Shown here: positions 17,001-49,300 of the stretch, one piece after another
How positions within the stretch are numbered: the first letter of the stretch is position 1
How the letters are laid out: each line of letters starts with the position of its first letter
Origin: Dysidea avara
Lineage: Eukaryota; Porifera; Demospongiae; Dictyoceratida; Dysideidae
Direction of reading: 5' to 3'
DNA: 64,000 nt
NCBI RefSeq assembly: GCF_963678975.1
Contig: NC_089279.1
Location: forward strand, 29,799,525-29,863,524
Notes under the pieces: model-generated
Databases searched by the model: none
What the model was told of the DNA's origin: nothing
What the model saw: only the letters and a program-made list of their open reading frames with translations
Position numbers and translations under genes: made by a program

Positions 17001-20000
17001 TACACAGCAAGAACTGTTCGAAAAGCACCTCTGCAATCCATGCATACTGAAAGAAATGGTGCAGCATGCCCCAGTTATATCAATTATCATCTGAAAAGAA
17101 GTATCCATTACGCTTCGTTGTCAGCTATGTTCACCCCATTACACAGTAGTACGAATCAAGAACTGTTTGAAAAGCACCTCTACAATCAAAATAGCCACTA
17201 TGAAAAACGGATGATTTTCCGTTACGAAAGGAAGCCATCACTTGCTACCACCAAATCGACACTTTTTGCTGTCAGCAAAGAAGAATTGGACACAAAGGAG
17301 GACACTGGAAAGTCCATGAAGAATGCATTGTGCGTACTGCAGTATGCCAAAAGGCACCTGTCGGAACGAAGCAATGTCAAACAGTGAAAAAATCAAGCCC
17401 GTAGCCTTAGCCATTATCGAGTTACGCTTGTCTGAAGGCATCAGTCAGGCAGTCAATAGAAAATTCCGTTAAATAAATTATTTTTAAAACTCCGTAGCAA
17501 CTTGTTGAAAGTGTTTCAGGTTGATCTAAAAGCTTCTTTGGGCTTAGTAAAAACCAATACTGTCTCATCGTTGTCAGGGAAAATTGAGACTGTTTTTTGA
17601 GTGATGTTATTTCTTGGGCCACGCCTACTCCTTTGTGGTCCCTACTATACAGTACTATCGTACTGTATGATGCAATGTAGCATCTGTTCTGTTGAATATC
17701 TTAACTGCCTGAGGCTATAGTCCATGTGGTAATTAATGTGCACGTCTTTCAAAAAGTATTCTAATTTAGCAGATAGCAGTGTTGTAACTGAGAGGTATGC
17801 AGTAAGTGAAGTTGTTTTCTATAGGTGTGCAACATGGTCCACCAAGTAGCTATATGATACCATCAGCAATGGATCAGCAATCAAATGTATGTATGTGTAT
17901 TGTGTAGTGTTGTTTTAATTAACTATAACTAAAAGCAAATCCATATTATAACTAAAACTAAATCTATAACCAAAAAAACAACAGAATAACTAAATCTAAA
18001 ACTAAAAAGAATTGAAAGATAACTAAAACAACACAGAGAATATAACCATAGCTAAATCTGTAACTAAAAGGAATTTAGAATGATTACTATATCTAAAACT
18101 AAAATTATTGACAAAACTAACTATGACTATTAAACTCCTTACTAAAACAATACTATAGTATTCTGTGTGTTCTGTTCTCCAACTTGTTTATAACTGGGAA
18201 AGCAAACATCAATTGTTCATGTCTCACACAACAGGTGAAGCTCCACAGGCATGATATAGCTTTCTGCAGTATACCAGTTCTGCCTCCAGGGATTTTCCTG
18301 CACTGATTTGTGGCACCTGAGTTGTGCATGGTTACAAACGTTTACTTTTTTGCTTTGTGTGTGTGTGTGTGTTTGTGTGTGTGTGTGTGTGTGTGTGTGT
18401 GTGTGTGTGTGTGTGTGTGTGTGTGTGTGTGTGTGTGTGTGTGTGTGTGTGTGTGCTTGTGATTTGTGGATATTTCTTGTGTAGTTGACACAGAGTCAAG
18501 GAAGAAGATTCATGTAAGCAATTAACTGAGTGTGACATGTACTTTTCACAATGGAAACTCATGTATATAGCAGACTAGCAGTCTAAATATAGTCTCAAGC
18601 TGTATGTAAAAAATTAGAAAAATATTACTAATGCATCTTGGTATTGGTACAGTACAGTAGACCCTCCAAACCCCAATGGTCTCAGGTAATGATAAGTGAA
18701 TAAATTAAGCCCATTAATATAGTCTAATAAGCACAAACCTACAATCAAAACTCTAGTCACTTTTAATTTTGGACAAATGAGGGTACCAGTATATGAAGGT
18801 AAGAATACTGAAAGTGGTTCAAAATTTTGAAGATAAAACAAAATTTGTTGCCATGGGTACTATGATATAAACATAGACTTTGTTAATCACTATTTCAGAA
18901 AATAACTTTAATTTCTACATTGTAAATGCTATCTCAGTATAGACAGTACACTTCAGCACAACATGTCAATTGAATATTAGAAACAAACTATTTGAACAGT
19001 CATTGTATTGTTAAATTTATAGAACCTTCAAATGTGTAGCATGCACATTTGTTCCAGCACTACTAGAGAGTGTTTAAATTTTCATTCCTATAATCTAATA
19101 ACTGTCTTGTCTGTTGTTGTTGTTGTTGTTGTTGTTTTACATTTACTGCCCACACAGACCTATACCTAATCATAGTACTAATGTGACACCTGTCCCTGCT
19201 ACTGGATGGCGACAAGGTGAGATATGCATTTCATGGTTAAAATGGGTTGGCCGGCATCACTGACTTGGATGACCCAGTCATCCTGGTCAGACTTGATCTG
19301 ACCTAAATTTAAGCACTACATTTCAGGCACTATAACTGTAAGGCAAGAAATTTTTGTTTCGTACAAGTTTTCGTGGATTTTGCTGGCATCCTATCTTAAA
19401 TATTTGTCCATGTACAAGTTGCATGGACTGATCCAGTGATCAATGTCTAAGCCATGAAAATTTGTTCTACAAAAAGTACTACTTTACTAGTGATGGACCA
19501 ATACCACAATTTTACTACCTATCCCCTATACCAAGATGATACATTATAGGTGAAAAATGGCTGATACCAATCCAGTACTGATACTTTGTATGTACAGATG
19601 CATTTAATATACACAAGAACAGCCATAATGGTTAATAAGCCAGCTTACCAACATATATGCTATTCTTGTAAAGTGCAGCTCATTGGTTTTGTGGCCATCA
19701 ATCACAAGAAATAATTGTCCTTTTTAAATTGTTATCTTCATGGCTAACTACTCTTTTCACTGTACTAATAATGTTGTTTGCTGGCTGGCTGGCTGGCTGG
19801 CTTCTTTCACAAAAAATTCTTACCTTTGCTCAACTCCATGCTGCCCTCTTGAAAGACAATTAAGTGATGTCATGCAAAATATCAGTTGGTTCGTATCGGA
19901 CATCTATAACTTTGTCTGATAGCGTTAAAGTAGGCCCAATACCAGTATTGGTAACAGTATATCACAAATTTTATCACATTACGAAAGTCTAATACACCAC

Positions 20001-46307: not shown

Positions 46308-49300
46308 TTAGGTGTCATCATCCAGCTTATTTAGCTCTTCAATTAGTTGCAGGTCAGTGTGACATTGGGATAATTGTGATTTCAATTCTTCCAGTTTAAC
46401 AGAGAGATTCTCCTAAAATGATATATAAGGCAAATCATGTCATTCTGTAAGCCCTACACCTCACCTGAGTGGCCTTAATGGATTCCTCTTCTTGTTCTGT
46501 AGTAGGACTGGTCCTGCCTATTGCATTGTAGGCCGTGTTGATGGAGTCTATCTCTTGTAGTATAGTTTTCATCTGTGTGATAAGACCACTTTATTATAGT
46601 ACCATATCAGGTAGGTCCCAAGGTAGTTAAGGGACTTCATTTAAGGGGGGTGGTGGTGGTGGCACCCCCTTGACAAACTCCCTAAGGGTACATACAGTAG
46701 CTGAGAAATGTACCCGAGAATTTGTAACAGAAACAGTGAATATAGGTACGTACCTGAGAATAAACCATAACAAGTTTAAAAAACAAATTCCTAGAGAAGC
46801 ATGCCCCCAGGCCCCTCTAAATGCTAAAAATTTTCCCATATGGAGGTCTAAGTATTTCAAAGATAAAATTTTCACTGCTAACCCCCAACACATCGAAATC
46901 AGCAAAAATTTTCCCCTCAAAATATTTATGCTATATGGTATACTCTTCATGACCTCAATAATAAGACCACCTCATTATAGTGATTGTGATAATTTACCTC
47001 ATGTCTCAGTTGCTCCTCGGTCTTGTGAGGCTCATCAAATGAATACACAAGCTAAGATGGTATATAAGACCACCTCAATATAGTGACCATGTTACTACCT
47101 CATATTTCAGTTGCTTGTCAGCCTCATGGGGCTCATCAAATGAATTCACAGACTACACAATAAGATGATTATAGTGGACATAATCAGATAATGGTACTCA
47201 CTTCACTCCTCACTGGTCCATGTGGATACTCATATTCAGACTGCAGTGATATGTAATAATAAAATGGCTGCCTCTGTGTGTGTGTGTGTGTAGTGTGTGC
47301 ATGTGCTAACTTACAAGATCCGTTTCACTCCCGTCTGACAGTAAATCTGCTGACGTAATACTTTGTTCGAAATCATGATCATCCATCTTGTCCACCACCA
47401 CTGCTGCTGCTACATGATCATCAGTCACATGATCATCAGTCACATGATCATCGGTCACATGATCCTTCTCAATACTATACCCACTAGTAACCCTACAGGA
47501 TTAAATACTGAGTGACCCACACATGTCTAGTTAAAGTTGGACTGGACCTAGTATGCTTTTGAAAAATTTATAGTGCTTTTGGGAAACGCTGCAAATATTT
47601 CGGTTATGTCCCAGTGACACACAGTTGAGCTTCCATTTTTACTTGACTGCTCTATTAGAGCATCCAATGCACCCAAGAATGTTCTATTAGGGGTACTCAA
47701 TATGTGGTGACTGTTCTATTAGAGTGTTTGATATTTTTGCTTGTGGTCAATTTCATTCAATACATGCAAATTTGATACCCTGTGCCTATTGTGCTGGCAT
47801 CAAGCTTGATGCTTTTGCCTACCTATTATGCCCCCAATCATGCTGGTATAACCTAGTGAAAGTTGCATGGCACTTGCTACAATATCACAAGCAGTATAAA
47901 TACTTGTAAGAAAAGTTTGCAATAAGCAACTGATAAGGCCCTGCACACACACACAGCACACAAGTTCACTGCATACCTGCGACAAGGCACTTGTCTCAAG
48001 CAGTATGCTGAACATCTCTTGTGACACATCAAGTGGCAGTGCAGACACTTCAACACTTTGTGACTCCAGAACTATAACAATGTTTAGAAGATTAGCAGTA
48101 CGGCTATTACCCCTGACCTTCTTGCTACAGATGACACAATAAGCTGGTCCATGTTTTATCTCAGTTGGTTTAAAATCGTGATCTGTCATCAGCTTTTCAG
48201 CTGGTTCATTTTGCAGCAACTTATGTTCTCCATTGCTACATGAAACATGGTTTATGTTGAGTGCATGTATGTGTGTATACCAGACATGGGGCAGGGTGGA
48301 AAGATTTTAGGTGCTACTTCAAAATATTACACAATTGTTTGGAATATAATGTGAACCTCAACAGTCTCAATACAAAACCAGCTAATGGTGGGGATCACTT
48401 AGGATTGTTAGCTCTTTCAGATGTGCTTCGTGTCAGGATTAAGATGCTGTACATACCTTTGTAGAATCACTAGGCATATTTGGTCAAACAGTATTTTGCA
48501 TGTAGTGATTCTAGCACTAGCCGAGTATGCTTATTGTAAACAAAACAGTATTACATCATCCCCACACATTAGTTTATCTCGAAGGCCAAGGGTTTGCATA
48601 ATATATTTTAATGGTGCTTAACTTCCTCTGGGGTTAAGGAAAGTACCAACAGAACCAGGAGCCCATAAAAGGAATACTTTGCTTTTGAGCTAATCTGATG
48701 GGTATAACACACCAGAAGGCCAGAGCGTTCCCAGTGTTTCACACTGAGTGCCTTCAGGTACTTGCCATGTGATCATAGTGTGTGAAATAACAAAACAATC
48801 CTCTACATGGGACCAGTGGACAGTCTAGACAATACATGTATTTTGATGACATACATGATGACTGAACAATGATATCTTTCTCTCGATTATTTGAATGTTT
48901 GAATGTTTTGTTATATTTCACAACATTCACGTGGCAAGTAGGTACCTGAAGGCAAGTATATAACTGTGAATATGCTTAAATGCTCATGTACATGTCCCCA
49001 TGTTTGCCTTACATCACTTACAAGGCCACTGGCATGTCTTCATTGTCACTACAGTCACTAATAGCCTGAGGGCAGTACATCAGTGGTTACCACAGCAACA
49101 GAACAATAACAACACACACCTGATGGTCTGACAGTTGGTCCAACTCTGTAACAGAAACATCAACACCATACATAGCTACCTAGTGTCCACATTAGCAGCT
49201 TACCTGGTGTAGTTGTGTTATTAGGTTGTGGGTCAGCCATCTCTGGTGGCTGATGGTGCTCTGTGGTGTGTGTGAGTCGTAGCAACACATCACCACCGTA

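Follow-up and report, generated by a model that had tools for sequence, protein, structure and literature searches.

Tandem duplications that end inside genes leave incomplete gene copies, and direct repeats can evolve in concert through gene conversion. Here, we explored a 64,000-bp stretch of the genome of the sponge Dysidea avara (the window, C8:29799525-29863524, in a genome totalling 550.8 Mb in 108 contigs; unless a contig coordinate is given, positions are counted from its first nucleotide) in which an RNF212B-like gene on the + strand and a PDZD8-like gene on the - strand are arranged tail to tail and the 3' parts of both recur between them. This arrangement probably arose through an old tandem duplication that ended in two GT tracts, followed by gene conversion of one copied tail by its parent, by insertion of miniature inverted-repeat transposable elements (MITEs), and then by duplication of most of the locus.

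As in partial tandem gene duplication generally, the copies are incomplete and the ends lie inside genes; the present case differs in that two tail-to-tail genes contribute, both ends are whole, and the extra tails lie back to back. As in concerted evolution by conversion, a short and unusually similar tract shared by linked repeats ends where the homology ends; here, however, one partner is apparently a relic, so that the tract stands out on an older background. With regard to mechanism, template switching between microsatellites in replication repair (MMIR) produces segmental duplications in yeast without unequal crossing over (PMC2518615). In both systems, short low-complexity repeats lie at the junction and at the parental ends; the yeast duplications, however, are fresh experimental events, whereas the present one is old and known from sequence. 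Human copy-number breakpoints are enriched in tandem repeats (PMC4090240), a statistical germline enrichment as opposed to the one old event reconstructed in the sponge. Within the open-access literature, we found no paper covering RNF212B together with PDZD8, and none on gene conversion and tandem duplication in sponge genomes.

Gene tails back to back at a GT-rich junction

Self-BLAST recovers the ends of both genes a second time as B'-A' (37.24-40.60 kb), giving the order A-B'-A'-B with all matches on the same strand, as the first-pass annotation of this stretch had claimed. The units and their edges are the following.

18356..18455, + strand: (TG)50 tract in the intron before RNF212B exon 15, left parental edge (Tandem Repeats Finder; A/A' homology lies on its right side)
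18408..23476, + strand: A, parental RNF212B exons 15-17, introns, and 3' flank (self-BLAST, alignment)
37240..38700, - strand: B', apparent relic of the last PDZD8-like exons and introns (self-BLAST, alignment to B)
38703..38757: degenerate GT-rich junction of B' into A', about 55 bp, with the same junction in a second locus
38703..40600, + strand: A', apparent relic of RNF212B exons 15-17 and 3' flank (self-BLAST, alignment)
46276..47298, - strand: B, parental last PDZD8-like exons and introns (alignment to B')
47262..47310: GT-rich stretch in a PDZD8-like intron, right parental edge, beside a probable exon donor at about 47310 (B/B' homology ends here)

The matches between parental and copied tails are these.

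A/A': 18408-18526 with 38703-38829, 79% identity
A/A': 19150-19216 with 39151-39220, 84%
A/A': 22018-22090 with 40055-40131, 88%
A/A': 22169-22262 with 40163-40253, 77%
A/A': 23393-23474 with 40510-40594, 72%
B/B': 37252-37468 with 46286-46503, 88%
B/B': 37465-37884 with 46597-47061, 81%
B/B': 38474-38725 with 47058-47298, 92%

The B/B' alignment continues through exons and several introns; the A/A' alignment is best in three exons, with intronic flanks and the 3' flank still recognisable. The homology between 18.4-23.5 and 38.7-40.6 kb, on which the earlier proposal depended, is thus present in the self-BLAST, and the RNF212B pieces had been correctly picked out, although they are exons 15-17 of 17 in the present model and not exons 16-18. 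When A and A' were aligned globally, the score was 1763.5, as against 1245.5-1359 in five shuffles, but exon 17 and the 3' flank were misplaced, so that all counts given below for A come from local pieces.

PDZD8- and RNF212B-derived sequences meet in a degenerate GT repeat at about 38703-38757, and both parental breakpoints are intronic GT tracts, as noted earlier: the (TG)50 tract on the left and, on the right, a perfect 16-bp tract (47275-47290) within a longer GT-rich stretch. A microsatellite of the same unit and orientation therefore occupies both parental ends, and its degenerate form the junction. GT tracts of the + strand measuring 12 bp or more, together with the 10 bp to either side, take up only 0.30% of the 264 kb around the window (C8:29769525-30033524), counting the tracts discussed here, which makes it unlikely that both ends fell at GT tracts by chance; for two random ends, the probability would be of the order of 1e-5 if they are independent. 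These tracts may thus have served as the substrates of the event. Unequal exchange between microsatellites, the route put forward previously, fits this structure but is one route only, given that replication-based template switching could leave the same junction; both fit, and the sequence cannot tell them apart. The units measure about 20.3 kb (left) and 8.6 kb (right), close to the earlier estimates of about 20 and 8.6 kb.

A second copy of the locus

Searching the genome with the junction region revealed a second occurrence at C8:29946039-29946763 (95% identity), so the same 264 kb, which contain no N, were compared in full. Most of the window proved to be duplicated.

12164..63856, + strand: segment S1, repeated on the same strand as S2 at about 118661-179162 (C8:29918185-29978686)

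S2 lies 106-115 kb downstream, its main blocks are 92-99% identical to those of S1, and the whole A-B'-A'-B arrangement is present in both (hereafter, loci 1 and 2). Past these limits, there is an extra match of 82816-83450 to 179158-179803 (88%) and one further match at 70%. The S1/S2 repeat begins at an element with inverted-repeat arms in the intron after RNF212B exon 5, and the second RNF212B copy accordingly lacks exons 1-5, of which no second copy was found within the 264 kb. Over exons 6-17, only 3/631 sites differ between the two copies. The stretch 24694-26611 is absent from locus 2; it carries an integrase frame, and an integrase-containing retroelement frame (rve, H2C2, DUF5641) was noted at 24672-26084.

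Sites compared among all four copies separate parental from relic sequences. In A, A1+A2 stand against A'1+A'2 at 162/582 sites, with no two-letter conflict and 1 three-letter site at which A1 equals A'2; in B, B1+B2 stand against B'1+B'2 at 59/869 sites, and 1 site conflicts. Thus, the A-B duplication predates the large duplication, and the recurrence of the A-B'-A'-B order in both loci implies that the inner duplication is real as well as older. The presence of the junction in the second locus shows that an assembly slip does not account for it; the later duplication of the arrangement with about 50 kb around it is an addition to the earlier reading.

Uneven divergence of the duplicated tails

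The duplicated parts have not diverged equally. In locus 1, B and B' differ at 12/437 sites beside the junction and at 44/380 distally, and A and A' at 90/482; columns with a gap in any copy were dropped, the counts exclude the 94-bp and 54-bp gaps as well as the B' insertion, and the A pieces, here and below, were hand-chosen for detectable homology, form a small part of the 5-kb unit, and may be poorly aligned at their edges. For counts drawn from both loci, we scored sites at which the parental copies are set apart from the relic copies in each locus, three-letter sites with that split among them, and also kept only the B/B' columns from 46297 to 47274. Such sites amount, in exons, to 15/138 for A, 15/143 for distal B, and 1/140 for proximal B, so that A and distal B agree (Fisher test, p 1.0) and proximal B departs from A (p 1.8e-4) and from distal B (p 3.7e-4). 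In noncoding sequence, the values are 141/427, 24/240, and 2/187, respectively, with a dispersed repeat counted apart (5/103), and proximal again differs from distal B (p 5.7e-5). The boundary between the two parts of B was chosen after seeing the data; when it was left free in a permutation test, none of 5000 permutations yielded as extreme a change-point within B/B'. The agreement of the exon clocks of A and distal B fits one event, with a younger tract inside it.

About 46838-47274 in B: near-identical B/B' tract, roughly 430 bp beside the junction

On one side, this tract begins at an intronic 54-bp length difference and dispersed repeat; on the other, it reaches the GT junction, at which B and B' cease to be homologous. 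Its local rise in identity is significant and stops at heterology, as gene conversion would leave it, so that conversion is the probable cause, and the rewriting, like the inner duplication, is older than the large duplication. The duplicated parts are therefore not all of one age, which we attribute to this later rewriting. The previously proposed old tandem duplication stands as an event but does not suffice as a single one, given that about 430 bp of B/B' are far younger.

The second locus provides a control for mutation rate. Between loci, noncoding parental copies differ at 5/427 sites in A (A1-A2) and, in B (B1-B2), at 19/240 distally and 4/187 proximally. Parental A is not more different than parental B, so that a low mutation rate of B is not a likely cause of the pattern; a higher rate in A than in B between the loci was considered as well, and the parental-copy counts do not show it.

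Several observations weigh against the proposed history. Noncoding distal B is well below noncoding A (24/240 vs 141/427, p 4.7e-12), and in locus 1, distal B (44/380) differs from all A pieces together (90/482, p 0.0045), albeit not from A exons (p 1.0); the noncoding excess in A may be partly spurious alignment, or distal B may also have been rewritten once. The relic copies are less favourable than the parental ones as a rate control, with B'1-B'2 differing at 1/240 distal and 3/187 proximal sites and A'1-A'2 at 5/427. Furthermore, the interiors of the units (23.5-37.2 vs 40.6-46.3 kb) show no collinear + strand match at E 0.01 in locus 1, where the better matches are inverted and the two + strand matches have E 0.23 and 0.65 (1/20 shuffles fell below 0.01); in locus 2, the interiors gave three weak matches only (56-62% identity), all on one repeat stretch near 149 kb. 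Duplication of the whole interval is thus deduced from its two ends, and the interior homology may have been lost through age and insertions. Finally, the left side of the (TG)50 tract at A adjoins a member (about 18247-18328) of a dispersed repeat family found beside or near GT-rich tracts, so that this tract is perhaps younger than the event and could have grown or arrived after it. The members of this family are as follows.

14828-14880: dispersed repeat
18247-18328: dispersed repeat, adjoining the (TG)50 tract
40837-40948: dispersed repeat
51247-51389: dispersed repeat

The noncoding counts are also what would favour two separate events, in which A' arose first and another exchange at GT tracts subsequently added B' to it, given that noncoding B/B' appears younger than A/A' (141/427) in its distal part (24/240) as well as next to the junction (2/187). 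We nevertheless consider this scenario unlikely: distal B and A exons are equally diverged, the sharp switch inside B/B' calls for a second process anyway, and one tandem duplication is a simpler account than a later arrival exactly next to A'. Instead of conversion, repeated rounds of unequal crossing over, in which B and B' as direct repeats gained and lost units, might have renewed B', but this is quite improbable in our estimation; direct repeats about 9 kb apart permit such cycles and the young tract extends to the end of B/B' homology at the GT junction, but a passing triplication and its loss would be required, and distal B' remained older. An assembly or haplotype artefact would be in keeping with the few-percent difference between S1 and S2 in most blocks, as might be seen between alleles. 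For the inner arrangement, this explanation is very improbable and we reject it: A/A' divergence is too great for alleles, and the junction occurs in two loci, each with private changes. Against S2 being an artefact stand the lack of any N in the 264 kb and the dissimilar flanks: among matches of at least 150 bp, the left surroundings share only two inverted ones with the S1 left flank, and the right flank mostly scattered ones of 56-78%, besides the 88% edge match and one 96% repeat. A whole-genome protein search, moreover, placed RNF212B exons 1-4 at one site (E 0.001) and exon 8 at two. Although exons are the best-conserved A' pieces, an origin of A' and B' as retrocopies of spliced transcripts is refuted by the duplicated introns, with B/B' homology running through several of them and A/A' homology reaching intronic flanks and the 3' flank.

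History and gene setting of the locus

Judged by its sequence, B'-A' looks like a relic in which the copied exons are mostly broken. In A', the acceptor of exon 15 has changed from CAG to CTG, the donor of exon 16 from GT to AT, and exon 17 carries an indel; in B', the 5' part and the acceptor are missing from the exon 28 copy, and the exon 25 copy has, in locus 1, a 9-bp insertion with an in-frame stop and, in locus 2, a different length change that leaves the frame open (PDZD8-like exon numbers 25-29 are labels kept from the first-pass annotation). The exon 26 copies next to the junction are almost unaltered, as expected from the young tract. Both relic tails also contain insertions, in line with the earlier expectation that insertions followed the duplication.

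37885..38473: insertion of about 590 bp in B', a gap in the B'/B alignment, present in locus 2 at 95.7%
39477..40005: MITE in A', which we take to be of the hAT type, with ends CAGTGTTGGG/CCCAACACTG and the 8-bp flanking repeat AAGAAGAG

The A' element is 93.7% identical to a copy at 29166-29663 and is also present in locus 2. One end of the B' insertion resembles it (78-bp inverted match, 79%), and no clear terminal repeat or target duplication was seen at the flanks of that insertion.

The likely course of events can be laid out in order. First, a 54-nt exon pair in the PDZD8-like gene arose by tandem duplication of exon and intron sequence (46961-47049 and 47064-47150); the members are about 80% alike, and both are present in B and in B', so that the pair is older than the A-B duplication. 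Next, the interval from the GT tract in the RNF212B-like intron to that in the PDZD8-like intron would have been copied in tandem, joining the PDZD8 tail of one unit to the RNF212B tail of the next in a hybrid GT tract. With both breaks falling in introns, one complete end was left to each gene, as had been argued before, and the extra tails, B' and A', with no gene body attached, would have decayed. Subsequently, about 430 bp of B' beside the junction would have been overwritten from B by gene conversion, a direction favoured by the intact working exons of B. The MITEs, both insertions being common to the two loci, would then have entered A' and B', probably after the rewriting, given that the B' insertion interrupts the young tract and has no counterpart in B. 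Most of the locus was then duplicated 106-115 kb downstream, and locus-specific changes followed, such as that which left 24694-26611 in locus 1 only.

The genes concerned, and one neighbour, are modelled as follows.

About 3.7-7.2 kb, + strand: RGS-domain gene (Pfam RGS E 2.9e-8 on one frame; E 1.8e-4, below cut-off, on another)
8079..22087, + strand: RNF212B-like gene, 17 modelled exons with AG/GT borders
18494-18513, 19158-19216, 22029-22087, + strand: RNF212B-like exons 15-17, within unit A
46276..53900, - strand: PDZD8-like gene, partly modelled, with SMP exons at about 52.2-53.9 kb, PDZ exons at about 50.6-51.1 kb, and 3' exons to 46.3 kb

Of the N-terminal RING and following coiled coil that characterise RNF212B, the RNF212B-like model shows the RING (zf-RING_5, E 1.8e-8); as joined, the model does not stay fully in frame through about exons 10-14, in its middle. 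The name is a putative one, based in part on the start of the human protein. PDZD8 has an SMP domain, then a PDZ domain and a C-terminal coiled coil; the SMP exons of the PDZD8-like gene show an SMP-class match to MMM1 (E 9.3e-6), and the PDZ exons a weak PDZ match below cut-off (E 0.15). Here too, the name is putative, based in part on resemblance to the human protein and on inspection. The motif TCACTATANTGAGGTGGTC occurs on the - strand at 2130, 5432, 37788, 38484, 46965, and 47068 (6 matches with up to 3 mismatches vs 0.05 expected); two of these lie within introns of the PDZD8-like gene and another two in the relic counterparts of those introns. A search of viral contigs with the PDZD8-like query gave 1 candidate stretch, of which 0 were confirmed, and the intron motif gave 0 matches there.

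Elsewhere in the region, several long open frames of a putative gene lie on the - strand at 42666-45520, in the right intergenic part, with no Pfam match above cut-off in either of two frames scanned. A 31-bp minisatellite (TGTAGAGAGTTCAGCTACAAACAAATCACCC) at 29851-31273 and about 99132-99839 belongs to a unit that recurs inverted about 70 kb off. Directly left of the window, from C8:29769525 (the left end of the stretch examined), stands a tandem array of about 8.1-kb units, its copies 94.6-97.9% identical, with a diverged end (about 90%) that extends to position 716.

It is conceivable, if rather doubtful, that the GT junction acts as a lasting boundary, the PDZD8 side being repeatedly renewed by conversion from the working gene and the RNF212B side, tens of bases away, decaying freely, in a locus that goes on duplicating in units of different size, namely the exon pair, the gene tails, the 50-kb block, and the nearby 8-kb array. 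The event is of an ordinary kind and calls for no new biology; it is its history that is unusually readable. The locus clearly exemplifies a duplication between two genes that has microsatellites at its edges and steps that can be ordered, and the later second copy helps to separate conversion from differences in mutation rate. It also illustrates that an age estimate for such a duplication, if taken from a single stretch, can be off by tenfold or more.

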